Source of the DNA: an uncultured Prevotella sp.
GTDB taxonomy: Bacteria; Bacteroidota; Bacteroidia; Bacteroidales; Bacteroidaceae
Assembly (NCBI GenBank): GCA_946188165.1
Contig: CAMHTW010000010.1
Span: forward strand, 1-64,000
Direction: 5' to 3'
Length of the DNA: 64,000 bases
Shown here: positions 9,383-51,434 of the stretch, piece after piece
How positions within the stretch are numbered: position 1 is the first letter of the stretch
Layout of the letters: each line of letters starts with the position of its first letter
The notes under the pieces: generated by a model
The model's input: the letters and a program-made list of their open reading frames with translations, nothing else
What the model was told of the DNA's origin: nothing
Databases searched by the model: none
Program-made: the position numbers and the translations under genes

Positions 9383-9456
9383 CGTCAGTCTAGTTTTGTC
9401 TTCCTTCTTACTTCTTCCTTCTTACTTCTTACCTCTTACCTCTTACTTCTTACCTC

Positions 9457-9921
9457 TTACTTAAAATAGTACAGGAAGGCGGCAATACCTTCCAGGGCAG
9501 GCTTGCGCTGCCCTTCAATCTCGATAGCGAACTTGATTTCAGCCTTACAGATGCCACGCAGATTCTGGATGCTATGCAGTTTGGTCACCAGACGAACCCT
9601 TGACCCCGTAATGACAGGCTGTCCGAAGCGCATGTCGTTCATACCATAGTTCACCAACATCTTGATATTATTCACCTCGATAATCTGGTCCCACATGTAA
9701 GGCAGCAAGCTCAACGTCAGATAACCGTGAGCAATGGTAGACTTGTAAGGGCTCTCTTCCTTGGCACGCGCTACGTCAACATGAATCCACTGATGGTCTA
9801 ACGTAGCGTCAGCAAACAGGTTGATACGGTCCTGATCGACCTGAAGCCACTCGCTGGCACCCAACTCCTCGCCCAAGTGGGCAGCAAACTCGTCGTACGA
9901 GTTAATCACTAATTTTCCCAT
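9457..9921 (-). CDS. MaoC-like hydratase
   Basis: DQDRINLFADATLDHQWIHVDVARAKE...TIAHGYLTLSLLP typical MaoC/hot-dog signature. Confidence 0.87.
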   Translation of the reverse strand: MGKLVINSYDEFAAHLGEELGASEWLQVDQDRINLFADATLDHQWIHVDVARAKEESPYKSTIAHGYLTLSLLPYMWDQIIEVNNIKMLVNYGMNDMRFGQPVITGSRVRLVTKLHSIQNLRGICKAEIKFAIEIEGQRKPALEGIAAFLYYFK

Positions 9922-21166: not shown

Positions 21167-21233
21167 TTTCTTATAAATTTTGTACACAGAGACTCAATTT
21201 CTCATTTTCTCAATTTCTCATTTTCTCAATTTC

Positions 21234-21743
21234 TCAATTTCTCAATTGAACAATCCCCCATGTTCCGAACAACATGAGAAGCAATCCAGGCCAACCAATG
21301 GTAAAGTCGGCTATCGTAGCAGCAATTCCACCAGTCAGGATGAACTCACCCAGACAACCAATAGCCATGCTGACAAGGATGACACCAATCAACAGAGACA
21401 GGCTGACGGTCTTGAAATGCTGGGCAACGAGTCCTGCGACAAGGGCCAGAGTGACCAGCTTGAAGGTCATGACGGGCATAACCTCCCAAGCGGGCATACC
21501 AGTAACGGCATGATTGACCAACGGTGAGGCAAGGGCTGCCAACAACCCCGTCTTCCATCCAAACTTATAGGATCCGGCAAGGATGACCAGCGACAGCGGT
21601 GCAAAGATGATGCCTCCCTGCGGAATAAGGTGGAACAACTGAGGCAGTATCAAGTTGCAAGCCACGAACACCGTTGCCCACAGATACGTCTTTGCCTCGT
21701 CATAATCGAGTGAATAAAGTCTTACATTTGCTTCCATAATCAT
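21234..21743 (-). CDS. ECF-type transporter S component-like membrane protein
   Basis: Small multi-TM protein with GGIIFAPLSLVILAGSYKFGWKTGLLAALASPLVNHAVTG. Confidence 0.6.
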   Translation of the reverse strand: MIMEANVRLYSLDYDEAKTYLWATVFVACNLILPQLFHLIPQGGIIFAPLSLVILAGSYKFGWKTGLLAALASPLVNHAVTGMPAWEVMPVMTFKLVTLALVAGLVAQHFKTVSLSLLIGVILVSMAIGCLGEFILTGGIAATIADFTIGWPGLLLMLFGTWGIVQLRN

Positions 21744-21802
21744 TTTTTTATTAATTTCTCATTATCTCATTTTCTCAATTTCTCATTTTCTCAATTTCTC
21801 AT

Positions 21803-23680
21803 TTAGAATTCAAAGCTCACGCCTCCCATGAACGTAGCCCGCGGCATGGGGTAGCCGAGATTGATCTCGTACTTCTGTGCCAACAGGTTTTCGCCACGTA
21901 CCCAGAGGCTTAGGGCTTTCGTAGCAGCGTAGGTAACGCTGGCATCCAGCAGGCAGAAGTTCTCTTTCGTCTCGTTGTCGCCAACCGCCGTATAGAGATG
22001 GTTCACATACTGAGCGCCCAACGTAGCCAACCACTTGTCGTGATGATAGTCGATACCCAGATAACATGTGGCCTCAGGAGCTGCCACAATCTTGTTCTTC
22101 ATGTGCAGGTACGAGGCGTTACCCTTAATCGTGAAACTGGGACAAATAGGATATTTTACTTCTAGTTCTGCACCATAATTTTCGATTTCACCCGTATTCA
22201 CGTTCTTCATATTGATGGTCTGAATCATGTTGTCGCCCTTGATATAAAAGAGGTTCACACCATAGTTCAGGCCTCCGTCCAGACGATGACGCCACGACAG
22301 TTCGTAGTTCCACAGACGTTCTGGCTCCAGCTCTTCGTTGGCTGACTTATACAGATACATCTCCTTAGGATTGGCACGACGGAAACCCTTGCTGGCCATA
22401 GCCTTTATCTCGCCTGTAGCGATGGGACGGACAACGATACCACCCTGGGGAATCCACTCACTGCCAGCCACAGAGTGGTGGTCGTAGCGCAGACCTGCAT
22501 CAATGGTCAGCCATTCTGTCAGGTCCTGACGGAAATCTACATAACCAGCGATATCATTGGCATGCGAATGACAGCTCTGCATCTGACGCTGCTGGGTGTT
22601 GACCACATCGCCCGTCTCACGATTGGTATAGTAGGCACGTCCATAGATGTGCTGATAGTCAACACCAACGGTAGTGCGGTTGCCTTCAAACAACTGGGCT
22701 GACTGGTACAAAGAAACGCCAGACACGGCATCCTTCGAACGGAACAGGTCTGTCTGGGGAGTACCACCTTCAGCATTATAGCCGTCATTAATCTTATGGC
22801 GTCCAAAGTTCGAATAGACGCTCAGTGCACCACTGGTACAACCATAGTTGTTGCTCAGCGTGGCTGATACCTCACCACGGGTAATCCACTGGTCGTTCTC
22901 CAGTTTCAACTGACTTTCAGCACCAGGGTTCGAAGCATTCCAATGTGTCACATTACCACTCAGCGAAGCCTTCCAATTCTCGTTCAGGTCATAGCCCAAA
23001 TTCAGGTAGCCGCCATACTGCTCGAAACCCATATTGGGACGATGGTTGTCTGTACGTCCATACTGTGCAGCAATGGTACTGCTGAACTTACCGCTGCGCA
23101 CCTGGTTCGAGGCCTCAGCCTGTACGGTACCCCAGCTGCCTGCAGCAATGGTTGCGTTTGTCGCGATATGATCGCCACCTAACGGACGACGCGTCACGAT
23201 ATTGATGACACCACCCATGGCATTCGAGCCATAGAGCACAGAGGCAGGACCACGCAACACCTCTACCCGCTCTGCCATCAGGGTCTGATAGCTGTCGCTG
23301 AGAGGGTGACCATAGATGCCCTGATACTGCGGATGCCCGTCGATGAGTACCATCAACTGACCCGTTCCACCAGAAATACCACGCAGGCTGATACCACCTG
23401 CTGCACCCGTCGAGACACCATAGCCCATCATCGAGCGTGAGGTGACAAAGAGTCCCGGCACCTGTTGCATCACCGTTGGCAGGATGCTCGTCTGGTGTTG
23501 CTTCGTCAAGGCTTCACGACTGATAACGGTGACTGTCATAGGCAGGTGACGCACATCAACAGCGTTACGCGTACCAGTTACCACTACTTCTTGCAAGGCC
23601 AGCGAGTCAGCTGTCGACTGCGCCCTTACAGGGCTAAATAAAAAAGAACAAATAATAAATAAAAAATAATGTCGTTTCAT
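21803..23680 (-). CDS. TonB-dependent receptor
   Basis: TonB-box-like LQEVVVTGTR, plug VEVLRGPASVLYGSNAMGGVINIVTR, C-terminal barrel ending FEF. Confidence 0.9.
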   Translation of the reverse strand: MKRHYFLFIICSFLFSPVRAQSTADSLALQEVVVTGTRNAVDVRHLPMTVTVISREALTKQHQTSILPTVMQQVPGLFVTSRSMMGYGVSTGAAGGISLRGISGGTGQLMVLIDGHPQYQGIYGHPLSDSYQTLMAERVEVLRGPASVLYGSNAMGGVINIVTRRPLGGDHIATNATIAAGSWGTVQAEASNQVRSGKFSSTIAAQYGRTDNHRPNMGFEQYGGYLNLGYDLNENWKASLSGNVTHWNASNPGAESQLKLENDQWITRGEVSATLSNNYGCTSGALSVYSNFGRHKINDGYNAEGGTPQTDLFRSKDAVSGVSLYQSAQLFEGNRTTVGVDYQHIYGRAYYTNRETGDVVNTQQRQMQSCHSHANDIAGYVDFRQDLTEWLTIDAGLRYDHHSVAGSEWIPQGGIVVRPIATGEIKAMASKGFRRANPKEMYLYKSANEELEPERLWNYELSWRHRLDGGLNYGVNLFYIKGDNMIQTINMKNVNTGEIENYGAELEVKYPICPSFTIKGNASYLHMKNKIVAAPEATCYLGIDYHHDKWLATLGAQYVNHLYTAVGDNETKENFCLLDASVTYAATKALSLWVRGENLLAQKYEINLGYPMPRATFMGGVSFEF

Positions 23681-25401: not shown

Positions 25402-26877
25402 TCAGAAGGGTGGCGGTGAGACGAGGTGCATCTCCCGACCTGTGATGGAGTGATGAAACCATATTTCTGCGGCATGTAGCATGAGTCGCTCGCCCTTGGT
25501 GCCATAGAGTTCGTCGCCCACGATGGGGCGTCCCAATCCGTCTGGATGTGCACAGTGGATGCGCAACTGGTGGGTACGCCCCGTCTGCGGATAGAGAGCT
25601 ACCATATTAGGACTGATAAACTCGTAATCTGTCACCGCTCGCTTTCCATGTTCCATATCCACAACTTGTCGAGGACGGTTCATGGGGTCAGGCCGCAAAG
25701 GCAACTCAATCCGCCCCTTTCCCCCTTCCATCTTACATCTTCCATCATCCATCTTACATCTTCCCTCTAACCTCGCTATATACTTCTTTTTTACCTGATG
25801 TTTAATGAACTGCTCCTGCAGCGCACGATACACTTCTGGCGTCTTGGCAACAATCAGCAGTCCGCTGGTTCCCATATCCAAACGGTGAGCCACCTTGCTA
25901 TCAGGATAACGTTCCTGCATCACCGTCTCGACGGAGTATTGCTCGATGCGTCCTGGCACAGACAACAAGCCACTGGGTTTATCGACCACCAACAGCCAGT
26001 CGTCCTCATAAACGATAGGGATGTCCATTTTCTGAAAACCTAACAATTCTGGGTCAGGATCAACTTCCAACCCCTGCAACATCCACGTCAAAATAGGTTT
26101 ACATTTTCCGCGACAAGCAGGATAGTAATTCAAGTGCTGGCGCAACTCCGTCTTTGTCGATTGCCCCCACCAGAATTCTGCCATACAAACAGGCTTCAAT
26201 CCGTTCTGATAGGCATATTGCAACAGTTTTGGCGCACAGCAGTCGCCCGTACCACCAGGGGGCATTGGAAACTTCTTCCTCAACTTGGGCTTGTCGTAGT
26301 ACGACTGCCAAATATCTACCAAATCTTTTACCTCTCCTCGCGCATTCAGCAGCTGGTATTGATGGAACAACCAATCTTGTAAATTTTGTGACAATTCTTT
26401 AGAAGTCTGAGGGCTGATGGCTGAAGTCTGAGAGATAATCCGTTCCTGGGTTTTGAAGTAGCCATCAGGTTGCTGGGCATCATACACAGGAGGCACGAAA
26501 TAATCCCAGTCGTTCCTGCCAGCCAACAAACCGCTATAAGCCGCCAAGAAACCAAAACCCACCCCCAGCCCCTCCCGAACGGGAGTGGAGACACCGCATA
26601 GGGAACCCGTCTCGCTGTGCTGTGCAGCCATAGAGTAATTTGACTCCCCTCCCGCTCGGGAGGGGCTGGGGGTGGGTTCTGCGCTGGGGGTGGGTTCTAC
26701 CACCAGCACGCCAAACATCTTGCCACAGTCCGCATCCGTCCTAATGATTTCGTGTTCAGCAATATACTGCTGCACCTCCTTAGCCGCCAATTGGCACAAA
26801 GGATGGGGCTCGTAGCAGAAAGGGTACGTAAACCGTTCTGGCTTCGGAATGTCTGTATGTAGTGGATGAACAACCAT
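25402..26877 (-). CDS. RluA-family pseudouridine synthase with N-terminal extension
   Basis: VVDKPSGLLSVPG, VAHRLDMGTSGLLIVAKT, PQTGRTHQLRIHCAH motifs. Confidence 0.88.
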   Translation of the reverse strand: MVVHPLHTDIPKPERFTYPFCYEPHPLCQLAAKEVQQYIAEHEIIRTDADCGKMFGVLVVEPTPSAEPTPSPSRAGGESNYSMAAQHSETGSLCGVSTPVREGLGVGFGFLAAYSGLLAGRNDWDYFVPPVYDAQQPDGYFKTQERIISQTSAISPQTSKELSQNLQDWLFHQYQLLNARGEVKDLVDIWQSYYDKPKLRKKFPMPPGGTGDCCAPKLLQYAYQNGLKPVCMAEFWWGQSTKTELRQHLNYYPACRGKCKPILTWMLQGLEVDPDPELLGFQKMDIPIVYEDDWLLVVDKPSGLLSVPGRIEQYSVETVMQERYPDSKVAHRLDMGTSGLLIVAKTPEVYRALQEQFIKHQVKKKYIARLEGRCKMDDGRCKMEGGKGRIELPLRPDPMNRPRQVVDMEHGKRAVTDYEFISPNMVALYPQTGRTHQLRIHCAHPDGLGRPIVGDELYGTKGERLMLHAAEIWFHHSITGREMHLVSPPPF

Positions 26878-28820: not shown

Positions 28821-30036
28821 GCTATGGGGCATACAGGGCCAAATAGGCTCATGGAAGAAGTCTATGAGACTCATTGGACTTAAAGGACTGATGGGCTTCA
28901 TGGGTCTTTTAGGCCTTTTGGGCATGGGGTTTGGGTCTTGCAGTCCGGAGCCACCACTTCACCTCTATGATGCTCAGGAAGCGATGATAGAGCTGTCTGT
29001 TGTCGACCTGGATTTTGAGAGCTATTGGGGAACCGTGATGGACTTGAATACAAATATGGAAATTGAGAGCAACTGGTACTATGGCTGGGACGCTGTAGAT
29101 GTCGCCACCCATGGCGAGATAGGCTACACCCTACCCACCGTATTTGAAGTGCGCCGTTATTATACTGGCGAGGTACCTTATGTCAAGCATACCGGTGTCA
29201 TCAGAGATACCATTCATGGCAACAGTTTCCAAGGCATGTACGACTGGGGCTTCTGGGACATGATGCTGTGGAACGAAATTGATGCCAAAGACGGTGTGCA
29301 GAGCATCATCATCGACGAAAACAGCACACTCGATTCCGTTTTCGCCTATACCAACGCGACAATGCGTAGCACGCGTTATAATGCTCCTCGCTTCACCCAT
29401 GCCTTCAATGCTCCAGAGCCATTGCTGGTCGTCTATGAGCAGGGCATTGAGATTAACAAGAATCTAGACGGCTTTGTCTTCGACGAAGAACGCAACGCCT
29501 GGGTCAGAACCCTAAAGATGACCCTGAGGCCTGTTACCTATATATACCTGACGCAGGTAATTCTACACAACAACAGGGGACGCATCAGCAGCATTGACGG
29601 CAATGCCGACCTTTCGGGTATGGCTCGCAGCACCAACATGAACACAGGTCGGGCTGGCGACGATGCCATCACAGTATTCTTCAATGTCAACTTCAAGAAA
29701 GACCGTGACAAGGACGGTGAAAAGGTAGATATCATCGGTGGACGTGTGCTGACCTTCGGTATCTGCGGACTGCAAGCCAACAAGATTAGCAGTCCCAGTG
29801 AGGTGAAAGACGCCCATCGCCACTATATGGACTTCACCATGCAGTTCAACAATGGTATGGACTCCACCTTCGTGTTTGACGTGACAGACCAGATTCGTGA
29901 GAAATACAGGGGTGGCATCATCACTATTGAACTCGACGTTGACACCATACCGATACCCACCCGCTCAGGCGGCAGCGGTTTCGATGCGGTGGTAAAAGAA
30001 ACAGAAGATGGTGGCACCTACGAATTTGACATGTAA
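28813..30036 (+). CDS. DUF5119-like lipoprotein (pilus anchor/accessory type)
   Basis: Lipobox GFGSC; VVDLDFESYWGTVMDL; position between DUF3575 gene and fimbrillins. Confidence 0.65.
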   Translation: MNKLWGIQGQIGSWKKSMRLIGLKGLMGFMGLLGLLGMGFGSCSPEPPLHLYDAQEAMIELSVVDLDFESYWGTVMDLNTNMEIESNWYYGWDAVDVATHGEIGYTLPTVFEVRRYYTGEVPYVKHTGVIRDTIHGNSFQGMYDWGFWDMMLWNEIDAKDGVQSIIIDENSTLDSVFAYTNATMRSTRYNAPRFTHAFNAPEPLLVVYEQGIEINKNLDGFVFDEERNAWVRTLKMTLRPVTYIYLTQVILHNNRGRISSIDGNADLSGMARSTNMNTGRAGDDAITVFFNVNFKKDRDKDGEKVDIIGGRVLTFGICGLQANKISSPSEVKDAHRHYMDFTMQFNNGMDSTFVFDVTDQIREKYRGGIITIELDVDTIPIPTRSGGSGFDAVVKETEDGGTYEFDM

Positions 30037-35914: not shown

Positions 35915-35993
35915 CCCCTCCCCCCTACGGGCTCCCTCGCAAGAGGGGGCCAATAGGGCTAATAAGGCTAATAAGATAATAATTAAAAAAACA

Positions 35994-36764
35994 ATGAGCG
36001 AGCAAGAAACGAAGAAGGACGAGGCCATTAAGGCTAATGAGGCTAATGGGGCTTATAAGCCCAATGAAGCTAATGGGCCTGAAGCCAATAGCCAGCCCCA
36101 GCGCAAAGCGCTGGAGCCTAAGCCCTTCTTGCCAAAGAAGGGTAACTATCGTGGACTCATCGTCTATCAGAAGGCGGAGTGTATCTACGATATCACCTTC
36201 TATTTTGCTCACCATTACTTCGTGGAGCGCAAGGATCGCACCATCGACCAGGTCGTTCAGGCCGCCCGCTCTGGTAAGCAGAATATCGCAGAGGGCTGTG
36301 CAGCAGCCAGCACCTCTGCTGAGACAGAGTTGAAACTGCTGGGGGTGGCCCGCGCCAGCATGCAAGAGACGCTGTTGGACTACGAGGACTATCTGCGTAC
36401 CCGCCACATGGAACAGTGGCCCTTAGACGATCCTCGTACCCAGCAAATACAGGAATATAGCAAGGTGCACAACCGTCCGGAGGACTACACGAAGGACATC
36501 GACAAGCGCTCACCCGAAGTCCTGTGCAACATTGCTATCACCCTGATCCACCAGTTCGACAACATGATGGGCAGGCTACTGGATCGCCTGCAAAAGGACT
36601 TCGTGGAAGAAGGCGGTATTCGCGAGCGGATGACTGCAGCGCGCCTGGGCTACCGCAATGAGCAGAAAGCCCGCATCGCAGAGCTTGAGGCGGAGAACGC
36701 CAAGTTGAAAGCCCGCATCACCGAACTGGAGGCCGCCCTGCGGCAGAAAGGAGACAAACTATGA
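35994..36764 (+). CDS. Four-helix-bundle (S23-type, suffix-domain-like) protein with C-terminal coiled coil
   Basis: YRGLIVYQKAECIYDITFYFAHHYF...DQVVQAARSGKQNIAEGCAAASTSAETELKLLGVARASMQETLLDYEDYLR. Confidence 0.8.
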   Translation: MSEQETKKDEAIKANEANGAYKPNEANGPEANSQPQRKALEPKPFLPKKGNYRGLIVYQKAECIYDITFYFAHHYFVERKDRTIDQVVQAARSGKQNIAEGCAAASTSAETELKLLGVARASMQETLLDYEDYLRTRHMEQWPLDDPRTQQIQEYSKVHNRPEDYTKDIDKRSPEVLCNIAITLIHQFDNMMGRLLDRLQKDFVEEGGIRERMTAARLGYRNEQKARIAELEAENAKLKARITELEAALRQKGDKL

Positions 36765-37996
36765 AAAGACCAATGAGGCTAATGAGGCCAATAAGGCTAA
36801 TGGGGCTAATGGGGCCAATGAGGCTCATGGGACTCATAGGACTCATGGAGCTTATGGGGTGTAGCGGAGGTGAGGACGCCACAGGACAGACTCCAACGAC
36901 ACCGCCTACCCCGACGACACCTACGATAACGGAGACTGCCATCACTTTCAGCGGACAGCAAAGCGAAGAGCAGGCTGTAAGCCGAGGGGCCAATAGGGCT
37001 TATGGGCCTTATAGACGGGCGGCTGGCACCCCGCTGAGCGATGCAGGCGTAAGACAGTTCCACGTCTGGGGCTATAAGAACATGGACTACGAGGCTGATG
37101 CCTATGGCGGCACGCAGACGGTGTTCCCAGGCTATACCGTCAACTGGATTAGCGGCAGCGCCGCCACGACAACTACGAACAGCAACGGCTGGGAGTATGT
37201 GGCTCAGCAGACAACCGACGACGAACAAACCATCAAGTACTGGGACATGGGCGCCAAAGCCTATCGGTACTTTGCGGTAACAGGAGGGCTGAATGGGACC
37301 TATGGGGCCAATGGGGCTTATGGGGCCTATGAGTTCAGCATTGCGGCGGATGCCAGCAGTGAAGGGGCGAGGACGGCTACGCCGTACTTCAGCAAGCTGT
37401 GGTTCTCGACGGGAAATCTGGGCGCTTACCCCGACAAGCAGTTTGGCAAGCCCGTGACGCTGGAGTTCCTGAAGCCCTTCGCGCGCGTGCGATTCCTATA
37501 TAAATATTCCACCCCGCGCGAGGGATTTAAGATGACGGAACAAAAATTCCGTCCCACGGACGATGTGAGTGCCGCAGATGACGCTAAGGCGAAGATAGCC
37601 CGCAAGGGTACGGTGACTGTCCACTACCCCACTGAGGGAACTGCCACTAAGGAGTGGTACACAGTGGTAGTAGATAATGATAAGTCCACAAGGCTGGAGG
37701 CCTTTACTGAGGACTTCGACCCTGATAACGACACCAAAGTATATACCACCTGTGACAACGGCTGGTATTGGGTGTTGCCAATCATTTCGCAAGGCAGCTA
37801 TACGCTGACGGTGAAAGTAAATAACAACGATAGAGCTGTCACTGTGCCTGCGGAATATATGACTTGGCTGCCAGGCTACAGCTACACCTACATCTTCAAA
37901 GTCACCGAAGAAGGCGGTGTGGAGATTGGTTGGGTAGAGTATGCCATGACACCTTGGACTGAAATGACTGCCACCAAAACGGTATATAATTGGTAG
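36761..37996 (+). CDS. Fimbrillin-like lipoprotein
   Basis: Signal peptide with lipobox ELMGC, AITFSGQQSEEQAVSRGA, EYMTWLPGYSYTYIFKVTE shared with the other fimbrillins. Confidence 0.7.
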   Translation: MKRPMRLMRPIRLMGLMGPMRLMGLIGLMELMGCSGGEDATGQTPTTPPTPTTPTITETAITFSGQQSEEQAVSRGANRAYGPYRRAAGTPLSDAGVRQFHVWGYKNMDYEADAYGGTQTVFPGYTVNWISGSAATTTTNSNGWEYVAQQTTDDEQTIKYWDMGAKAYRYFAVTGGLNGTYGANGAYGAYEFSIAADASSEGARTATPYFSKLWFSTGNLGAYPDKQFGKPVTLEFLKPFARVRFLYKYSTPREGFKMTEQKFRPTDDVSAADDAKAKIARKGTVTVHYPTEGTATKEWYTVVVDNDKSTRLEAFTEDFDPDNDTKVYTTCDNGWYWVLPIISQGSYTLTVKVNNNDRAVTVPAEYMTWLPGYSYTYIFKVTEEGGVEIGWVEYAMTPWTEMTATKTVYNW

Positions 37997-38031
37997 GGAG
38001 ATAGTGATAATTGATAATTGAAAATTGAGAA

Positions 38032-39153
38032 TTGAAGATTGAAAAGACCATAGTAAGAATACTGGTACTCATGAGCCTGACGGTGCTCATGGGATGCTCT
38101 GCAGACTCTGAACCAGAGACGTCGGAGATGAAGACGGCTGCGGTGGAGGTGGTAAGCTTTGTCACGGGGTATGATGAGGCCTATGGGGCTAATGGGGCTC
38201 ATCGGGCCTGGGCGATTCCCTCGGGGTATGTGGCCTATGAGGACGGAGAGCAATCTATTGGCATTGCCTTTACGCAGAATGACGTAGAACCAAGGATTGG
38301 CAACTTTTTCAAGAGTGGAGACAAGTGGCGTACAGACTTGGAGAACATTGAAGCAGGAAGCTACCAGCTCTATGGCTATATTCCTCATCAGACAGCGATT
38401 AATTATAGTATTACGGACTATAATGGGGCTAATGGGTCCTATAGCACGGGGGCTATTATGACCCTGCAGAATGTACCCACTGTGATGCCTAACGACCTCT
38501 GCGTGGTCATTGGTGCTAAGCATGGTACAGATAAAGAGCACGATAGCGGGTTGCGGCAGGGTGACTTTAGTTTTACTGCTAAGCAAGGTACCGACAGCAA
38601 AGACTACGTCTTCCTGCTCTTCGACCACCTTTATGCCGCCCTGCGTGTGCAGATGAGGGTACAAGGCGACTATGCTACCCAGCGCACCATTAAGCTGAAG
38701 AAACTCCGCCTGCAGGCCAGTGTCGGTAATACGCCAACGACGAAAAAGACCAGTATCACCATTGCGTTGAATAAGACGACGGATGGTACCAACCCTATCA
38801 CTAATGTCATCTTCACACCTACGGGTACGGAAATTAGTGATGGTGTGATAGTAGAATCGAAAGATGGTATCGAGCTGACAACAGCCTTCCAACCATTCCA
38901 GAGTCATTTCATGCCTGCTGGTGTCACTAAACTGAATCTGATCAGCACGTATGATGTCTATGATAGAAAAGGCAATCTGATACGCCTGAACGATGAGGCT
39001 ATCAATACCATAGATATACAGGAGTTGTTTTCAGGACAGACCCAAGCGTTACGTGGACGTCGGTATACAATCAATATGACGATTAACCCGACGTACCTTT
39101 ATATGCTGTCGGAGCCAGACTTAGACAACCCTACTGTTACAATTGATAATTGA
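38032..39153 (+). CDS. Fimbrillin-like lipoprotein (TTG start likely)
   Basis: Lipobox TVLMGC, fimbrillin-like N- and C-terminal regions; no upstream ATG in frame near the start. Confidence 0.6.
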   Translation: MKIEKTIVRILVLMSLTVLMGCSADSEPETSEMKTAAVEVVSFVTGYDEAYGANGAHRAWAIPSGYVAYEDGEQSIGIAFTQNDVEPRIGNFFKSGDKWRTDLENIEAGSYQLYGYIPHQTAINYSITDYNGANGSYSTGAIMTLQNVPTVMPNDLCVVIGAKHGTDKEHDSGLRQGDFSFTAKQGTDSKDYVFLLFDHLYAALRVQMRVQGDYATQRTIKLKKLRLQASVGNTPTTKKTSITIALNKTTDGTNPITNVIFTPTGTEISDGVIVESKDGIELTTAFQPFQSHFMPAGVTKLNLISTYDVYDRKGNLIRLNDEAINTIDIQELFSGQTQALRGRRYTINMTINPTYLYMLSEPDLDNPTVTIDN

Positions 39154-39171
39154 CAATTGATAATTGACGAT

Positions 39172-42100
39172 ATGAGACGGATTATTACCATATTGAAAAA
39201 GGACATGAGGCCAATGGGGCTGATGAGGTTGATAGGCCTGACAGTGCTTATGAGCCTGATGGGCTTGTCGGTTCATGCCCAGATTAAGATTGGTGGTAAC
39301 GTATATGGTGGCGGAAACCATGCAGAGGTACGAGGAAGCACGAAGGTGACGGTGCTGAAGGGTGACATCGGTGCTGTGATGGATCCTGATGTAACGAAGC
39401 GCCAACTGGCAGATCCCAGCGGTAAGGTGTTCGGTGGTGCCCGTATGGCCAATGTAGGTGGCAGCTCATTCGTTCATATCGATGGTGAGAATGCCACCGG
39501 CTATATCCTTATTAATCAGGTATATGGCGGTAATGATATTGCCGGTACTATCGGCACAGCAGCAGCCGTAGGAGCAGAGATTCCTACGGAGCTGACGGAA
39601 ACCCAACCAGAAAGTGGGACTAATGAAAAGAAGAACAAGGTCGATAACACGTTCAACAGCTATGTGCGCATCAGCACGAAAGCAACTAATGAGCATTATA
39701 CTCAAAGCGAGATTGATGCTGCTTCAACAAACCCTGAGGCTGCTGCTTACGGAAAGACAACCAACGACGTGAAGCCCGATCCTTTGGCAAAGAAGGTTTA
39801 TATCGGACAGCTCTTCGGTGGCGGTAATGGTGACTTCACCTATACCGATGATGAGGGAAATCAGCTGAAAGATGGCGACGATTATATTATCAAACAAGGC
39901 GACACGATTATTGCCAGGAGTGCTACACCTTTCCAACTCCCCGAACTGGACAAGACCTATCTTGAAATCAAGGGCGGTTCTATCGTCTATGGCTATGGAG
40001 GTGGTAACAATGCCACGGTGAAACAGCAGAACATCATCCACATTGACAACCCCAGTGCGGTGGTGAACCATATTCTTGTGGATGCCAATGGCAATGAGGG
40101 TAATGATGAGACCTATACGACCTATGAGACTAATAAGAAAAATGGGGACGAAAATCCGCTTCCTTCGGGCTATACCGACCTGCTGACAACAGAACGTTTC
40201 AAGGAGATGGGTATCAACACCACTTTCTCATTCCCCAGTAGTGGTGCATACCAAATAGGCCGTTTCTTCGGTGGTAACAACAAGGCGGAGATGCATATCC
40301 GTCCTACGTGGAACCTGCTGGCGGGTAAGGTGCGTAACCTGTATAGCGGCGGTAACAAGGGCTCCATGACCTCTCCCGATGGTTTGCTCCTTGAAATCAA
40401 GGACTACTCCAGCCTTATTGTCGATAACCTCTTTGGCGGTTGTCGTATGGCAGATGTCATGCCAACGAACGACGATGGTGTCTATACGCCGTGTTTGAAC
40501 CTGCCGGGCTACCACTTCCCCCATCAGCTGTCTGCCCGTGTATTGGTAAAAGGTGGACATATCAATAATGTCTATGGTGGTAACGACGTGACAGGTACGG
40601 TCTATGGCGGTAATGCTGTCGATATCAATACTACCGTCTATGGCGACGTCTATGGTGGCGGTAATGGTGCTTATCCATACACAGACTCTCCATCACTTAA
40701 AGATGATCCCACCTATGGCGACTTCTGCTACTATGACGAAAACAGTCCCGGTGGTACTGAGGGCCTTAATGCCTTCCGTCCGAACGCCGAGCAGGTGTCT
40801 ATCCATCTGTTAGGTACTGAAGAGCACAAGACAGTCATCAAGGGTTCTGTGTTCGTCGGAGGAAACTGTGCATCGTTGGCTACCAAGATGAGTAATCCAT
40901 TGGTCGAGTTGAAGATAGGCTCATATGTTATTGCCGATAAGGTATTCCTTGGCAACAATGGTGAGAAGATGGTAGATGAGTCTATTCTTCAGCATTATGC
41001 CAATGTATATCCAGGAGCAGAAGGCTTCAGCTCATTTAATTTTAAAGAAGGCCCATCCACGTTTGCAGATTATATGGATGGTGTTGCCATGCCTTTGAAG
41101 CCCAGTCTCGTTTTCGATAATACTGCGAACGGCGATGCGGCCACATACATTGACAACACGAGTATGATAGGCTCGTTCTTCGGTGGTGGTAACAGAGGTA
41201 GTATGACCGTAGGCGGCAAGACGACTCTGAAGTTCGACAAAAAGCTGATTATCTTCGATAAGATTGTTGCCGGCTGTAACAACGCCAATGTAGCAGAAGG
41301 AACGTATAATGCTGCTTATGAAGGTGGTCTGTTAGGCGCTACCGACGAACGTGACAGCTACACCGAGGGTGGCAAGATTAAAGACCGCATAGAGTTGAAC
41401 CTCGACAACGTTCTTATAGAGCCTAAACGCTGGAACGACACCTTTACAGCAGTCCCCAATGGTACGACACTTACGGCAGGCAAGGAGTATTATGAGACCG
41501 ACCTGCACGAGACGAAGTTTATTGCTAACGGTACAGAGGTTTCCACCACAGCTAATCCATACTATGAATTGACGACTGTCGGATTGAGTCTGGAGTGGAA
41601 CACTGCCAAGTGGTCATTAGCCGAGAATGACTTTGTCAGTACCGGAACATCAAAGACCGGAAGCCCAAAGGACTGTGAAGATATCGACCGTCGTCTGCTC
41701 TGTGGTAACGTCTATGGCGGTTGCTACAATAGTGGTCATGTAAATGGTAATGTGGTTATCAACATCAACCAGAACTTGATGGATCGTGATGTCATCTTTG
41801 CCCAGGCTGCTGATAATGATCCATACAAGATCAGCGGTGAGCGCCGTACTGGTGTGCTGAAGGAAGCTCAGGGTGACGACGTGATGGCAACATCCTTGGC
41901 TGTTTACGGTGGCGGATTTGGTGCTGATACTGAGATATGGGGTAGCACCACCATCAACCACAATAATGGCTATGCCTTCCAGATGTATGGAGGTGGCGAG
42001 CAAGGTGTTGTCGGTAAGAAAAACAACGACGGTGAATACACCTATAACGCAGCCTACAGCACTACTGTCAATCTAAAAGGTATCAATGCCGGCTACTCGG

Positions 42101-45100
42101 AGAATGAGAGCGGCCTACCCATTCCTGAGTCAGAGTATATCTATGGTGGCGGTAACGAAGGCGATGTCCTCGGTGATTCTTATGTCTATCTGGGCAATGG
42201 TCGCATCTACGATGCTTTCGGAGGTGCTTCTAACGCCGACATTTATGGTGGTACGGAGGTACATATAGGATATAACGGTGGATTCCCGTGGATTCGTGAT
42301 AATGTCTATGGCGGTAACGACTTCGGTGGAACCGTTAGGGGTAACAGAAACCATTACACGGTAACGACACGAGAAGTCTTCGATCTAGAGTTGAAACGAT
42401 CCAGCACCTATGTGAAGTATATCCAGGGTCGTGTTGATTCTATCTTCGGCGGCAACTATGGTTACTATGACTATGCAGACCGTGTGTTCAAAGATTACAC
42501 AGACGGCAATGGTGCGCCATTGGATGGTTTCACCTTCCCGCATCTGAGCGACAACTCCTTCGTTCATTTCGTGCCAGAAGACCACTCCAGCAATCATGTG
42601 GGTTACATCTTTGGTGGCAGTGTTGGTTTCCCAGGTCATGAAAAGTTGTGTAACTCTATGCAGAAGGAAACCTATGTGCTTCTCGATGACACTAAGACCA
42701 AGAATGCCAACCGCTTTGCCAATGTTGATGTCTATGGTGGTGGTGCCTTCGCAGGTGTAGGAACAACGTTTGAAACCTTAGGTGCCGGACGTACCGCTGT
42801 TGACCTGTTTGCCGGTAGCTACCATAACATCTATGGAGGCTGTAATCAGGAGGGTCTGGTAGGTTACACCCGTGTCAACGTGCCTACAGAATCTACAGCC
42901 AAGGTGAATGCCCTCTTCGGTGGTGGCAAGGGATATGACATTGCACTGTTTAAAAAAGAGGCCACAAAACAGTTGGCAGCACGCTACTGCGACCACTATG
43001 TCACCTGTGTTGACTTTAAGAGTAAGAAAGCTATTGTAGAAGATGGCATCTATGGCGGTAATGAGAATTGTCGTATCGCGTGCGATACCTATATTAATAT
43101 AGAAGCACCTGTCATGCAGAGCAGCGGCTATCAGGCTACTGTCTATGGTGCTGGTTATGGTCGTAAGACGCTCTCTGGTCGCACCAACGTGTTTATGAAC
43201 AACGGTTCGAATGCCTATAAAGTGTTTGGCGGTGGCCGTGATGGTAATGCCTTCAACTTCGCTTCGATGTCAAAATGGCTCGCTAACCAATACGATTTAG
43301 CTGGAACTCCGACAGGAGAAATAGAAGGAAAACTGGTTGCCTATCGTGGCCTTTTGGAAGACTTTGGCACCTATTTGGCAGCAAATCCTCTTAGTCTGCC
43401 GACCAATATTGGTACATACCCCAACGCTGAAGGCGCATACACCGGTACCTATACCAATGATATTCTGACGAACGACAAGTACCACCAGACCAACGTCCAT
43501 ATTATGAATGGTGGTAATGTGAGCGGTTACGCCTACGGTGGTGGATATGGTATCAATGCCGTGGTATCAGGTTCTACCTTTATTGAGCTAAAGGGTGGTA
43601 ACGTGAATAAGGATGTCTATGGCGGTGGTGAAGGAGGTCCGGTATTTGACGAGTTCGGACTGGGAGGCTTTACTGCAACCACCAACGTCAATGTCGAAGG
43701 TGGTATGGCTCGTAACGTCTATGGTGGTGGTTACCTGGGATCAGTGGGTAAGCACCATAACACCGTTGAAGAAGAGCTCGTGGAAGCAGCCATCACCGAT
43801 ACAACGCCGGTTGACATCCCAGGCGTAGCCAACGTGACTATCGGTAAGTTGGATGGCACCAATTTCTATAACGGTGTTCCTGCCATCCAGCGTAATGCCT
43901 ACGGTGGTGGCGAGGGTGGTTCTGTCTATGGCACAAGCAACCTCACCATCAACAATGGTTATATCGGTTACCGCTATAAGAACACCTCAGCAACGGCAGT
44001 TCCTAACTACGAATATGTACCAGAACTGGACGACCAGACTCCTAACGCTATCGAGTTGGCAGGTAATGCCTTTGGTGGCGGTTATGTCATCAACAGCTTC
44101 GTAGACAACACCAATGTCACCATGTATGGCGGCACACTCCGTGGCAGCCTCTATGGTGGCGGTGAGCTCGGTCCTATCGGACGCGGCACGATGAAGTCTG
44201 GTGCCACTGGTGGCTTTACCAATGGTAATGCCCATATCTACAAGGGAGGAACGACTTATGTCAAGTTATATGATGGGCATGTACTTCGTAACGTCTTCGG
44301 AGGCGGTCGCGGTAAGGACAGCTGGGGCGGTGACGGTACGAAATACATGGATGCAGATTTGGTTGCAACGCTTGACCTCAAATCAAAGGGATTTGTCTTC
44401 GGAAAGACCGAGGTTGACATCTATGGCGGTGAGGTTGGTACTTCCGAGGGTGTTGCCCAGGGTTACGGAAACGTCTTTGGTGCCGGTGATGTCGGGTGCG
44501 TCTATAGTGCAACAGGTACCAAGTCCGGAGAAAGATATGTTAATAGCAAAGAAGGCTACTACTATGCTAATAATGAACTTACCGAGGACTGTAAGGTGCT
44601 TGTAGAGCCTTGGTGTAAGGCAAACTCTGACGTTAATATCAATGGTACTGACTATGCCGCAGGCAAATATGTTCCGACAGCTGCATTGAACTATTTGGGT
44701 AATAAGACTGCCAGTGCAGCAGAATGGACAGCTCTTGGTAAGACGGATGTCAACAAGGAAGGCATCATTATCCATAATGCCGTCTTTGCCGGTGGTAACA
44801 CCTCTCCTGGTTCTACCGAGGTGTTTGCCAATACCCCAACGGTATTCGGTAATGCCACAGCATCTATCCACGATGTCTACAACCGTGACCTTATCTCTAT
44901 TGGTAGAGGTCGTGTAGGTGGACTGTATGGTGATGGTAACCTGACGTTGGTCGATGGCTATCGTGAGTTGAACATTACCAACTATGGTACCGACTTCTAC
45001 CATATTAATCCAGAGATTACCTTGGAGCAGTATAATGCACTCCCAGTCCGCGAGGCTGCTTATTATGAAATTCGTTATAAGTGTCTGCAGCAATGTACAG

Positions 45101-48100
45101 ACAAGGATGGCAAGACCTACGCTGTCGGTGCAACTATCACTGCTGATGAGATGCTGACCGTCTTTGAAGGTGTGACAGTGGGAGAACCTGCTGTGCCCAT
45201 GATAGATGCTGATGATAAACCTTTGCCAGCATATTGGGAGGAGAACGGTGTCTGCTCACGCTATGCCGGTCGTCCTATGAATACCGTACAGCGTGCCGAC
45301 TTCTGCGGTGTCTTCGGTAGCCGCATGGTGATGCAGGGTGCACAAGACCGTGTGCCAGAGGTCGTGGACTATACTAACTACACCATCAACCGTGTTCGTG
45401 AGGTGTCACTGAATAAGAAGACATCAGTACGCTCTGATGATGCTAGTGATGCCAAGAACAAGGAACATGGCAACTACTTCGGTATCTACAGTGTCGTGAA
45501 CTACCTCGGTGCCCTCACGAGTGATGTAGACTTCCACACTGCAGTTCGTGTAACAGATAATACAGATGCAACGACCTATCAATGTGAAGCAAATGGGAAT
45601 AACTATGGAGTGGCTACCTATGAGGATTGGAAAAACCAGTTCCACGAGGATCGTAGACGTAATAATGGTACCTCGCACAACAAGGTAGCACTTGCTTCTG
45701 GTGTCTATCTGGAACTGACCTCAGAGAAGAGTACCGGCAAAGGACTCAATGAGAAAGACTGGGGCTATATCACTGGTGTTGTAGAACTCGACCTGATTAA
45801 CGTGCAGCCAGGTATGGGTGGTGGTTACGTCTATGCCAAGAACGAACATGGCGTACGTAGTCCTTCCGGAAAGACAAACACCATACTGACCAGCTTGAAC
45901 ACTGGAGCCGTTACAAACAAGATATTCACATACTCTACCGACGATTCTTCCAAGAAAGAATGGGAGACCTCCGGCAACTTCGTTCATAACACGAAGACCA
46001 TTATTGATGACTGCTATAATATCGGTAACAAGTATAAGGCACCCGATGCTGTTCCTGCGCACTACTGGTATATCAAGGGTGCTGTCTATGTCTATGACCA
46101 GTATATCTCTGCTTATACCGGTTCTCCGAATGCCTTCAGTGAGGAGGTTAGCATTCCATTAACCATCACCTCAGCTTCTCATGGCAAGTTGACTCTGATG
46201 GATGTGATGCCCAACCGCTATGCCTACTATTCTAATGGCGCTACGAAGAATAAACTTGGTGCAAATCAGAAGATAACCATCCGCGACAAGGAATACGGTC
46301 TCAACGACGCTATCACCTACTGGGATTACAGCCAGCTCACCGCAACAGAGAAGGCTATGTTCGTTGAAGAAACCTACACTGTCATTTCCGATTGTACTTA
46401 CGGAGATGGTGCAACGCCTGTCACATATAAGGCAGGAACCGTACTGTCGAAGGAAGAATATGAGACTTTGAGAACATACGCTCCTAAGAAGTATCTGGAA
46501 GAGGGTGATGAGGTACAGACGCCTTATGTACATCTCGTAACGAGAGACGAGGATGTTGACTTTGATTATGCTTTCCGTCCTTCCAACAATGTCAGCCACA
46601 ATACGGGTTATATCCTGACTTACAATATCAACAACCCGAACCAGTGGAACACCTGGTACACACCAAAGAGCGGAAGCTCATTGGAAGGAAAGAACCAAAC
46701 TGGCGGTGCAGACTACGAGGATGGTCCGACCTATACACCAATTGCCCCAGGCATGTATGGTCAGAATGACTATAAGGTTGGTAGCATCATCTCGCATGAA
46801 GACTATACTACATATACTAGTATTCCTGCTGCGTACATACCGAATAATGGAAAGAATCCAGGTGATGAGGGTTATGATGCCAGCAAGAAACAGGCCATCT
46901 TCAAGCCTGCCTATATCGTCACCGCTGAGCTTTTGGAAACCAAGAACAAGGATAATATTGACCAGCGTTTCCATAAAGGAGCTGTATTGGCTAAAGAGAA
47001 TTATACCGATGCTCAATGGTCAAGCATGAGTGGCAGCGTACAACAGGCTTATGTTGCTACAAGCACCGTTCAGATTAGTAACACCGAGGTTATCTATCGC
47101 AATACTTATCTGCCGAAATCTAAGTATGATGAACTCGTGAGTGCTCATTCTGATATAGCGACTACCATTCAACCTGCCTACTACTGTATTGAGGCTGGTA
47201 AGTATGGCGGCAACTACTATCAGACAGGCAATAACTACCGTGCTTTAGCAGCCTTTAGTGCTATGTCAGAAGATGACCGTAAGAAGTTCGATTATAACTA
47301 CGATGCCCTCGACCTGCTCATCGACCCGAACTACAGTAGGTCAGAAGGTGTGAAGTATCAGTATGACGGTAAGAATTATACCACAGAAGATGAGGCTCGC
47401 CAGAACATGGCTACCTACTCACTTCCTACGTCTATCGACTATAGTGCTACGTACAAGGGTTCTACGTCGTTTAAGTACATTGATGACAATAATCAGGAAC
47501 AGACCATCAAGACGGATGGAACCTCAGTACTTACAAGAAGCGAGTTTGAACGCCTGCCTAACGAGCAGTACTACTGGGCTCCGATTTCTGTGGGAGCAGC
47601 AGGTACATACTATGTGGTGAAGGAAACGATTGTGCTTGGCGATACCCCATACGCTGCCGGACAGGTCATCACGAGTGACACTTATAGTGGACTGAGTGAT
47701 ACGGATAAGTTAAAGGTGGAAACGCTGAACTTCGATGCTACAGGTACCTATTATTACTGTCGTGAGGGCTACACCATTAACAGCAGCTACTACACAGACA
47801 CAGAAAAGACTGGTGCTGTAACTGATATCCATAATACGAAACATACAACTGCTGTGCCTGCAGGTACTGTCATTAAGGCAGAGACTGATGATACTGTCTA
47901 TGGTTATGATAATGTCATCAACAAGCAGGCGAACTTCTCTATCCACGGATTGGCACCGACGGAGACCAGTACGCTGTACGTCACTCGTGGTTCAGACATC
48001 TTCGACCTCTCTGCTGAGAAGATTATCACGGTCATCTACCAGTACGACTATGTAGAGAGTGATATGGCTGGTCAGCACATCACACCGGTAAGCGAGCGCC

Positions 48101-51100
48101 ATATCCTGAATATCCACCTGAACTTCAAGAGTGGTGTTCCGACCGTGGAGGATATCCGTCAGCCAGACATCATCCTGCCGGGTACGGCTCTGTCAATGCC
48201 TGAGCCATACGTCACACCGGGTGCATACGAAATCACCGGTGGTGGTTGGAAATTGTTCGAATCAGAGACGGATGCTGAAAGCCATATCAATGGCGTTGAG
48301 TACACGAACTCTGTAGATCCGCTCTACCTCTATCAGAACAAGTATTGGCTGGCTTACTACACCAGAACGTACTTGGGTGAGACCTACTCGAACCATGTAC
48401 CTGTCAGTGTGGCTAACTACCATGACCTGAAGAAGGTGATGGATGCCAAGACGCACCACTACTACATCGACCACAAGGATGTACACGAGCGTCTCGGTGT
48501 TAAGCCCAAGATTTACATCAACGACTATAGCGGAAGTTCGGAGAATGGTCTCGACCTGTTCAAGAACCTGTATGACCTGAGCTTGCTGACAACTCCTGCA
48601 GCGTCTGGCGCTCTCGAAGGACATGCCCTGCTGAATGAACGTATCAAGGGCGGCGAGAACCTTGAGTTCTTCCTGCGTACGGATATCGACCACAGCACTA
48701 CACCTTGGACATCGATTGCATCTGAAGCAAATCAATGCTTCGAGGGTACGCTTCATGGCGATGGTCATACTATCAGTGGTCTGAACAACTCCCTGTTCGG
48801 TCATCTCTGTGGTAATGTCTATAACCTCGGCGTAACAGGTTCGTTCACAGGCGCTGGTGTGGCAGATGAAGGCAAGGGCTATGTGGAAAGCTGCTGGATT
48901 AACACCACGGGTACACCGGCAAGCGGCGTCAGAGCCGTCTTTGGTAAACCGACTGCCACTGATGACATCAAGCAGATTGTCAACAGCTACTACCAGGCCG
49001 GCAAGAGCTATAGTACAACGGACACTGGCAGCCATGGACTTGCAAAAGCTATGAGCGACCAGGCATTCTACAACGGTACAGTGGCCTATGACCTGAACAA
49101 CTTCTACCTGTACAAGCGCTATAACGATGGCACTGGTACAAGCTCTGGCGTTGAATACAAATACTGGATACCGGGCGAGGAAGAACCGCAGACAGGACAC
49201 TACGCTAACAACATCGAACTTTGTTCTTCCGGCTACAACAACATCAAGTATGTCGAGGAACGCTTTAAGGACGGTGACTTCCGTTATGCTGGCGGTACTA
49301 TTCCTGACAGCGAGGACGAACGCTTCTATACCAAGACGCTCAATCTTGGAACAGAGCAGGAAACCGTAGAAAGCGGCTTCTACCCCATCTGGCCGGACGA
49401 CTATCTGTTCTTTGGCCAGAGACTTACCTACGGCTATGCAACAGAAGCCCATCAGGATGTGCCAACAGCTGTGGCGAAGAATAGTGGACGCCTATCGACA
49501 CTTTTGGATGCCAACCGTGTCTATCGTGCACCGGCTTACTACCGTTCGAAGGATATGAGCTTCATACATTTCAACCCGCAAGTCTATCTGGCTCAGAAGT
49601 CTAAGGACGGCTCTAAGGAGGCATATCCTAACCTGACGGCTATTGACTTCAAGGGACACAATGATACCTATGAAGCTAATGGGGCCCATAAGCCTTATGA
49701 GTTGGGCTGGAATAATGGTAAGTTCTATGCGCCACTGCTCGATGACGGCGGTCTGACAAGTATCATCAACTGTGACGAGACCAGAAACCTGCTGGTATAT
49801 GCACCGGCAGAAAGTGCTACCACAGGCTATGCCAACAAGGCGACTTACGATGTGCTGACGGGCTACTTTACGGATCCTGCTTACGGTGACTATTATAATA
49901 TAGAAGGCAAACCCGAAGAGTACCGCACGGTTGCAGATGTCACCTCTACCAATGCGGCTATCTACGGTCACCTTGTGAAGAGCAACCTCAAGGCTACCAA
50001 CGACCATCTGCTGGTAGATAAGGAAGACTTCAACTGTCCGATAGCCTACCAGTTCGACGGCACTCACCGTATGTGGTACCAGCGTAAGCCGGAGGATCAT
50101 GAGTATGTTGACTTCACGAAGGGCTGGCAGGGTATCAGCATCCCGTTCACAGCAGAACTGGTGACTACTGACGATAAGGGTGAGATTACCCACTTCTACA
50201 GCGGTAGTGAAACGAGCAAGAACGGTACGGGTACTAAGATTGGTCATGAGTACTGGCTGCGTGAATTCAAGAGTATTAGTGAAGAAGGAACAGCACCTGA
50301 TGTGGTCGCTAAGGCTTCATTCCTCTATCCTACTGCTACGGTTAATAGTAAGACGGTAGATAATATCTTCCTGTGGGATTACTATTATAAGAATACCGCC
50401 GTTCACAACCAGAAGGATGAGAACAAGGACACGTATCAGACCTATTATGAGAAGAGCCGCAACTATTCGGGCTATCCGCTACTGGCTGCTGCCACACCGT
50501 ATATCCTCGGTCTGCCAGGTGAGACCTACTATGAGTTCGACCTCAGCGGTAACTTCGAGGCTCAGCACACGGCAGTAGCCATTGACAAGTTGGGTAAGCA
50601 AACCATCAGCTTCGTTTCTAATACGGGCATCGATATCGGTGTGAGCGATAAAGAGACAGCAGGCGTTACGCAGGCGTTAGAAGGCACTAACAAGAACTAT
50701 AGTTTAACCTTCAAGCCCAGCTATATGAACGAAAATCTGACAGCAGGTACCAACAACTACACGCTGGATACCGCTGGCGACAGCTATGACAAGGTGCCTA
50801 CTACCGGTGCAGCCACTAAAGTCAGTGCCTTCCGTCCATACTTCACGGCTACTGTCACTACAAACAGTCCTAAGATGATACCTGAGCGTATCATGTTCGG
50901 TAATGACTACAGCGGTTTGGAGGGAGAGCCGATTGCAACCCTTGACGGTAATCTGGAGATAAATGTCGAAGGACATAAGATTGTCGCCACGTCGCACCTC
51001 AAGAATGCTACGACGGTACGTATCATCAACGTCAGCGGCGTTTCCATCGCCAACTATGTCATCCAGCCGGGCGAGACGGTAGAGACCCCGGTAAGCATCG

Positions 51101-51144: not shown

Positions 51145-51278
51145 CACAAGATATGACACAAGATATGACCGAAATGATTATAACTGAAAGAAACACATAT
51201 TGCGAAACGGAACAGGGGGACAGCCTCTGTTCACATAAGGAGATGTCACCCTACAGGCATACTCTAAGCATACTGTTG

Positions 51279-51344
51279 GAGCAGCTTAGAAGCAGCCTAG
51301 AAGCAGGCAAGGAGCAGCTTAGGAGCAGCCTAGGAGCAGACAAG
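51279..51344 (+). repeat. 11-bp tandem repeat array (GAGCAGCTTAG-type, 6 units)
   Basis: gagcagcttag / aagcagcctag / aagcaggcaag / gagcagcttag / gagcagcctag / gagcagacaag. Confidence 0.9.
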
Positions 51345-51368
51345 AGGCAGTCTGGAGTACGTTTCATT

Positions 51369-51434
51369 AACGAGATTACGGCTCGTCGTCAACGAGATTA
51401 CGTCTCGTCGTCAACGAGATTACGTCTCGTCATG
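51369..51434 (+). repeat. 22-bp hairpin-forming tandem repeat x3 (AACGAGATTACGTCTCGTCGTC)
   Basis: Copies at 51369, 51391 and 51413; each contains ACGAGA-TTACG-TCTCGT (first copy ACGAG...CTCGT). Confidence 0.92.

Follow-up and report, generated by a model that had tools for sequence, protein, structure and literature searches.

A 9-bp tandem array in the leader of a fimbrillin-like Prevotella lipoprotein and its relation to an adjoining four-helix-bundle gene

The 64,000-nucleotide stretch of an uncultured Prevotella sp. analyzed here (contig CAMHTW010000010.1 of assembly GCA_946188165.1, positions 1 to 64,000, forward strand; hereafter the window) raises the question of how a short DNA repeat came to encode the signal peptide of a surface protein. 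The leader of a fimbrillin-like lipoprotein, for which the working name fimD is used, is encoded by a 9-bp tandem array of the unit NATRRGRCY (36772-36858), detected by Tandem Repeats Finder (TRF) and by regular expression, and flank analysis places the start of this array 8 bp past the stop codon of the gene at 35994-36764, which encodes a four-helix-bundle protein. Comparison of sequences suggests that the fimD leader is probably the right-flank part of a cassette, in which this TIGR04258 four-helix-bundle-plus-suffix gene is embedded in its own short tandem array. The features concerned are the following:

35948..35976, + strand: intergenic 9-bp array, left flank of the four-helix-bundle gene (TRF)
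35994..36764, + strand: four-helix-bundle protein with suffix domain (TIGR04258, TIGR02436, AlphaFold, Foldseek)
36031..36075, + strand: 9-bp array inside the four-helix-bundle N-terminus, N-E-A / N-G-A frame, NEANGAY (TRF, translation)
36745..36753, + strand: Shine-Dalgarno-like site AGAAAGGAG within the 3' end of the four-helix-bundle gene (DNA alignment)
36761..37996, + strand: fimD, fimbrillin-like lipoprotein of 411 amino acids (translation)
36772..36858, + strand: 9-bp array, leader of fimD, NATRRGRCY, about 10 units (TRF, regular expression, flank analysis)

The leader array and the fimD operon

The array behind the fimD leader is a DNA-level repeat and not a peptide motif, because its unit is also read in another frame and also lies between genes, and because the leader codons are rare and dictated by the repeat. 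Strict matching gives eight units (36772-36843), or about ten when the degenerate last ones up to the lipobox (36858) are counted, and the array translates, as stated in a preliminary description of this DNA, into MKRPMRLMRPIRLMGLMGPMRLMGLIGLMELMG directly before the lipobox Cys. Six tandem matches of the NATRRGRCY family were detected in the window, all on the + strand and confined to 35.9-39.3 kb, while none was detected in 30 third-order Markov shuffles of the window. The unit is open in two of its three frames, ATG-GGG-CTA (M-G-L, hydrophobic) and AAT-GGG-GCT (N-G-A, hydrophilic); within the window leaders use the M-G-L frame, while the N-G-A frame serves the N-terminal part of the 35994 gene and the mature fimbrillin-like parts, the genes neighbouring the fimD leader reading the unit as NGAYGA, and one array is intergenic.

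Regarding codon usage, array leaders of the operon across genomes encode Ile as ATA in 82% of cases (19% in mature parts), Gly as GGG or GGA in 58% (20%) and Leu as CTA in 14% (3%); non-array leaders likewise have the Gly bias and the Arg bias, with a much smaller bias for ATA and CTA. A pairwise codon-identity test was significant for Gly only, the codon-type test being the stronger of the two. Leaders kept constant as proteins while their DNA diverges at synonymous sites, which the preliminary description had named as evidence against a repeat-built leader, were not seen, the codons being rare and repeat-dictated and the units species-specific.

Array leaders appear to be selected as signal peptides because charge is mainly limited to their 5' units (p<1/5000): the last 15 positions of 25 array leaders contain 8 charged residues, compared with 30 +- 4 under unit shuffling, and none of 5000 shuffles was as low. 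These leaders were picked for their leader-like look, and the polarity test addresses the order of units within each leader. AGG (Arg) is found in units near the leader start and GGG or GGA (Gly) in units near the lipobox, a single G-to-A transition per unit switching Gly and Arg. This polarity, in several genes and many species, is in keeping with the earlier suggestion that the repeat can yield functional leaders.

Among 300 genomes of the genus, fimD orthologues were detected in 31, mostly with the same order of fimbrillin, fimE and a gene for a giant protein, and in some with a gene for a DUF5119 protein; the genomes compared comprise one per species and are in large part of uncultured rumen or gut Prevotella and Prevotellaceae. 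Some species have ordinary leaders in fimD, fimE and the giant protein, and others have 9-bp arrays there whose units and copy numbers are specific to the species, the units being ATGGGGCTA in L250, ATGGGACGA in L264, ATGAGTCTC in L260 and CTGGGGCTA in L256, with the leader array of L262 built on the complementary unit AATAAGCCC. No arrays were detected in the leaders of fimA-C (major fimbrillin) of the same operons, a single high value (L262) being the fimD gene matched again. The giant proteins of L260 and L264 have an array in the hydrophilic frame followed by an ordinary hydrophobic core, and the repeat therefore does not always supply the core of the leader. Repeat counting in relatives, which the preliminary description had proposed, gave 10 units for the fimD leader of the window and 17 for that of RUG837, the four-helix-bundle cores of the two being closely related. 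Homologous internal sites of fimD and fimE also carry arrays repeatedly, of about 3 to 11 units. The arrays of one operon share a genome-specific unit regardless of reading frame, different sites of the same genome being more alike (6-mer cosine 0.42) than the same site in different genomes (0.16; 0/5000 permutations). The other features of the operon and its surroundings in the window are:

28864..28935, + strand: degenerate 9-bp-periodic leader of the DUF5119 protein (lag-9 identity 0.64; DUF5119 E=8.6e-7)
36992..37009, + strand: array in mature fimD, read NRAYGP (array survey)
37292..37336, + strand: array in mature fimD, read NGTYGANGAYGAYE (arrays at the homologous position in other species)
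38032-39153: fimE, the next fimbrillin-like gene after fimD
38173..38199, + strand: array in mature fimE, read DEAYGANGA; 10-11 units lie near the homologous place in L174 and L208 (array survey)
38422..38439, + strand: two-unit array in mature fimE, read NGANGS (array survey)
39204..39266, + strand: leader array of the giant protein, read MRPMGLMRLIGL..LMSLMG (array survey, lag-9 analysis)

Of the other leaders that had been assigned to the same repeat family, that of the giant protein belongs to it, while that of the DUF5119 protein has the 9-bp periodicity and is only a degenerate member, and that of the fimbrillin at 38061-38098 (lag-9 identity 0.47, compared with 0.44 at other lags) is indistinguishable from background. 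The arrays of the spacer at 35948-35976, of the N-terminus of the 35994 gene, of the mature fimbrillin parts and of about 12 further genome loci had not been listed, and the four-helix-bundle gene that the arrays surround had been missed as the probable source of the leader array.

A general recruitment of new secreted proteins by the repeat, which had also been proposed, is unsupported, since arrays elsewhere are mostly intergenic or in other frames. Of the 118 arrays that a pattern search sampled in Bacteroidales contigs, 55 were intergenic, convincing lipoprotein leaders being those in operons of the fimD type, and in the sampled stretches only 2 of 55 lipoprotein-like starts had 9-bp array leaders, both in one fimD-type operon. 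Statements on the window's own genome, a 3.4-Mb draft that is 89.7% complete, come from pattern searches and chosen stretches; none of the 12 or so further array loci found there serves as a leader, nearly all being intergenic or at gene ends and one lying within a long secreted protein. Absence of the repeat from other secreted-protein genes of the genome, the second pattern named beforehand as counter-evidence, is largely what was found outside the fimD operon. Of the 48 units found in 84 kb of the window's contig, 32 fall into the 3.4 kb around the single four-helix-bundle gene. The particular unit of the window is carried by 7 of 60 relatives searched (36 of them of the same genus), all seven being of the same genus.

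The four-helix-bundle gene and its flanking arrays

The protein encoded at 35994-36764 scores above the cut-off for TIGR04258 (79 bits, cut-off 40) and TIGR02436 (30.2 bits, cut-off 24) and under it for PF05635 (28.1 bits, cut-off 33.8). The helical core of its AlphaFold model is confident, while the first 50 residues, including the array-encoded part, are of low confidence (disordered). The nearest solved folds in Foldseek are proteins of the S23/IVP family (2gsc_B, prob 1.00, TMt 0.72; 2rld_E, TMt 0.78, root-mean-square deviation 2.8; E-values only 0.15-0.5) and, more weakly, Avd of diversity-generating retroelements (DGRs), none with a significant E-value. The gene is under purifying selection, with a ratio of nonsynonymous to synonymous substitution rates (dN/dS) of 0.05-0.12, and the unit number of its N-terminal array varies among relatives, up to 15. 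Its stop codon overlaps the start codon of fimD (ATGA), as is also the case in six of eight other operons having the gene next to fimD, and GAAAGGAG in the Shine-Dalgarno-like site of its 3' end is invariant at five orthologous junctions in the DNA alignment. In L247 (G301:C4) and L251 (G280:C123) the four-helix-bundle gene, the array and fimD are joined in a single stop-free frame, of 613 and 620 codons respectively. The identity of a defence system was rejected for the protein, PADLOC giving no match. The open-access literature searched contained nothing on TIGR04258 or 'four helix bundle suffix'.

This gene has homologues in 106 of 200 genomes of the genus, and in the 30 homologue loci inspected short arrays abut one or both gene ends. 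Compared with other genes of the same stretches as controls, 9-bp arrays adjoin the gene at 14/21 loci vs 5/120, arrays of 8-10 bp (mostly 9) at 27/33 vs 11/135 (p=7e-17), and arrays on both flanks at 10/33 vs 1/135, while 7-bp arrays lie beside none of the 33 four-helix-bundle genes and at 10 of the 135 control genes. In a hold-out of 19 later-picked loci, array adjacency was again more frequent than in controls (11/19 vs 2/29, p=1.7e-4), and by TRF 16 of the 19 lie near a 9-, 10-, 18-, 20-, 27- or 36-bp array. The left and right flanks of a locus share 11.5 same-orientation 8-mers, compared with 2.2 in mismatched loci (0/10000 permutations), and array units vary by locus, even between copies within one genome. 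Related loci were treated as units in these statistics, and the assemblies are draft and metagenome assemblies. A phylum-wide sample, taken with no control set, has period 9 in 23 of 31 repeats near the gene, mostly short ones.

Other array types were observed at some of these loci. Four-helix-bundle genes with CAGAATAAT-type arrays adjoin, by eye, hsdS-like (type I restriction) sequences in L299, L301, L304, L305 and L308, where the arrays encode Asn/Gln/Ser-rich N- and C-terminal tails, and an CCGGAATAT array flanks the gene in L390. The reversed control pattern (YCGGRRTAN units) gave 7-20 matches per genome in G002, G027, G031 and G035, perhaps another array type like CCGGAATAT; two G027 loci examined did not show an CCGGAATAT-like array.

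Regarding the link between cassette and leader, the closest comparison is that of L242 and L244, which are close on the fimD tree, have 82% DNA identity over fimD-fimE and are alike in their left flanks up to GGCCCGGAGGCCG. Beyond this point a 9-bp array follows in L242, then the four-helix-bundle gene and then fimD, whose leader is MRLIGLIILCLTLVS before the Cys, while L244 has an unrelated small open reading frame (ORF) among 7-8 bp repeats and the leader MNEIKTIISQIGILCLISMITLLTLVS before the Cys. The two signal peptides have a common end (LTLVS) and different starts, that of L242 being the array. In this pair of close relatives the cassette is thus either present or replaced by another, and where it is present the first half of the fimD signal peptide is another one and derives from the array; L242 appears to capture array material in place as the beginning of a signal peptide. 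The small ORF of L244 (METRTINPVQLHLLEMFKYCKSEQ...; G217:C10, reverse complement 5930-6500) lies between 8-bp (AATGAAAA) and 7-8 bp (GTTTAAGA) repeats and is possibly another repeat-flanked cassette. On the fimD tree the presence of the four-helix-bundle gene beside fimD changes state about 8 times, equal to shuffled labels, and when gene presence was tested against array leaders by independent pairs, agreement was found in 3-4 of the 5 pairs and disagreement in none, numbers too small for significance.

Competing explanations and known systems

The cassette reading may be put as follows. A cassette or a piece of its array would have landed at the 5' end of an operon gene, where the array, open in the M-G-L frame, could have provided the first part of a new signal peptide. 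The leader would then lengthen by tandem duplication, in 9-bp steps and with no frameshift, and selection may have retained units with charge (AGG, Arg) at the 5' end and those without it (GGG/GGA, Gly) beside the lipobox. More array copies would have arisen nearby, in fimE, in the giant protein and inside mature domains, and the repeats therefore cluster around a single four-helix-bundle gene, as REP (repetitive extragenic palindromic) repeats can around RAYT genes. A wider proposal, which we hold only tentatively and at less than even expectation, sees in four-helix-bundle-suffix genes the centre of a class of Bacteroidales elements not described before. Each protein would maintain its own 8-10 bp tandem array or spread it, around its own gene and into adjoining ones; as one of the frames open in a 9-bp array is hydrophobic, such arrays could furnish surface proteins with signal peptides and also with variable, hydrophilic linkers.

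Several observations weigh against the cassette reading. The 12 or so further arrays of the own genome lie far from any four-helix-bundle gene, and the operons of L240, L256 and L261 have array leaders with no such gene nearby, the array therefore being able to outlast or precede the gene. In the hold-out the sharing of units between left and right flanks (5/19 vs 4/29 controls) was not clearly higher, and outside the genus arrays are weak or absent at many loci (in the order's other families 2/22 when scored strictly and more when scored by TRF). The species are related, the loci thus not being fully independent, and the controls were unmatched for spacer length. In the L242/L244 pair a swap is seen that may have gone in either direction. 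Finally, while the leader set as a whole, by its charge polarity, fits a positive n-region, an uncharged h-region and the lipobox Cys, the leader of the window deviates from this pattern, being interrupted by Arg in its core and by Glu at -4 (Asp in L184), with eight uncharged residues preceding the Glu; it is an unclean signal peptide and among the two weakest of the 25.

Of the alternatives, the arrays may be putative binding sites (operators or iterons) of the four-helix-bundle protein, which would regulate its surface operon, with use as a leader as a by-product. Iterons flank the genes of their binding proteins, and here too the units flank the gene and have a length near one helical turn; the strong purifying selection and the coupling of the gene to fimD by the ATGA overlap and the conserved Shine-Dalgarno-like site would fit as well. 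We nevertheless consider this explanation unlikely, as no DNA-binding domain is recognised in the protein and the units vary between loci and between copies in one genome, so that binding specificity would need to co-evolve each time. Under neutral replication slippage alone, 9-bp repeats would arise anywhere in spacers, genes that happen to start within them would use them, since signal peptides tolerate almost any hydrophobic sequence, and the four-helix-bundle gene would be a bystander in loose spacer DNA. This would account for the many intergenic arrays of the own genome and of the Bacteroidales sample and for the 7-, 8- and 11-bp arrays that the window's spacers also hold. Slippage is at odds with the specificity of the association for 8-10 bp arrays and the four-helix-bundle gene, with the unit shared by different sites of one genome and with the fimA-C leaders, which are not arrays, and appears unlikely.

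Two further explanations concern the leader itself. If gain and loss of 9-bp units alters leader length and hence surface display, the array would be a contingency locus for tuning dosage, in line with the tuning by copy number suggested in the preliminary description; the genes concerned are surface adhesin-like and homologous leaders differ in unit number between species, yet the units are diverged, which lowers slippage, and arrays in mature domains and spacers turn over likewise, making this explanation improbable. It could be argued from some weakly periodic leaders (38061 in the window, L240) that nothing more than lipoprotein signal peptides of the usual kind is present, with an L/M/G/I bias that merely resembles a DNA repeat, but this is contradicted by the rare-codon bias, the other-frame reading, the shuffles with no tandem matches and the restriction of the periodicity to the 9-bp lag, and is scarcely credible.

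Among known systems, the closest precedent for the leader is opa of Neisseria, which has CTCTT pentamer repeats in its leader-encoding part (PMC3960869). As in Opa, a short tandem DNA repeat lies in the leader-coding sequence of a surface protein and varies in copy number, here between species. Unlike the opa pentamers, which shift the frame and switch expression on or off, the 9-bp units of fimD are a multiple of three and preserve the frame, and therefore do not provide an on/off switch of the Opa type; units of the fimD type are, in addition, diverged and species-specific, occur also in other frames and between genes and accompany a four-helix-bundle gene. The closest logic is that of RAYT/REP, in which a low-copy gene is flanked by repeats of a dispersed kind, REPs can gather near rayt and gene and repeats apparently co-evolve (PMC2817692). 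The four-helix-bundle gene is likewise flanked by repeats, the hold-out supporting adjacency and not the sharing of left and right units above controls. RAYTs are tyrosine (HUH) transposases, however, whereas no nuclease was recognised in the four-helix-bundle protein by Pfam, NCBIfam and fold searches, which gave only the four-helix-bundle family, and REPs are palindromic and inverted, whereas the arrays here are direct tandem repeats of 8-10 bp, oriented alike on the two sides of the gene. Defining features of both systems are thus missing at these loci.

DGRs diversify surface proteins, and the four-helix-bundle fold of their Avd protein appears similar (Foldseek 8ub7_B, TMt 0.70, E 1.3). 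Unlike in DGRs, no template/variable repeat pair was seen and diversity lies in tandem units; the identity of a DGR was rejected, since no reverse transcriptase (PF00078) match was detected in the 89.7% complete draft of the own genome. Some S23/IVP members lie in intervening sequences, and the 23S rRNA IVP/S23 proteins (PF05635/TIGR02436) resemble the protein in the TIGR02436 score above the cut-off and, short of significance, in the 2gsc and 2rld fold matches. In contrast to these, the four-helix-bundle protein has the suffix domain TIGR04258 at its C-terminus, and its gene sits within tandem arrays in protein-coding operons and not in rRNA genes.

A search of open-access literature gave no description of a four-helix-bundle gene embedded in such arrays, while a tandem repeat in a leader has its precedent in Neisseria Opa. 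Should complete genomes bear out the association, a defined DNA partner would be assigned to a widespread protein family whose function is unknown, making this function testable. The array leaders constitute a natural series of a signal peptide built from a DNA repeat and shaped by selection. The low-complexity LMGLMG leaders in Bacteroidales drafts should be regarded as real coding features and not as assembly noise.

Further observations in the window

Regarding the proteins of the operon, Mfa_like_1 matches were detected in two of five fimD orthologues and Mfa_like_2 matches in one of five, while the fimD protein of the window matched neither; no convincing solved relative was found by sequence and the structure model is of low confidence (predicted local distance difference test, pLDDT, 31.6). 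The giant protein (39157-51144) has about 3990 residues and a leader and no Pfam match, with a two-unit array also present at 49678. No known RNA families were matched around the locus, and a G-quadruplex reading of the G-rich strand was dropped because many GAGG/AAGG units break the G-runs. Tandem arrays of 7 or 8 bp, mostly near gene ends, lie at 7743-7785, 9399-9462, 21193-21254, 21746-21804, 25725-25768, 38005-38045 and 39139-39168, and directly past the end of the giant gene there are 11/22/33-bp arrays (51278-51357) and a 22-bp array (51369-51431).
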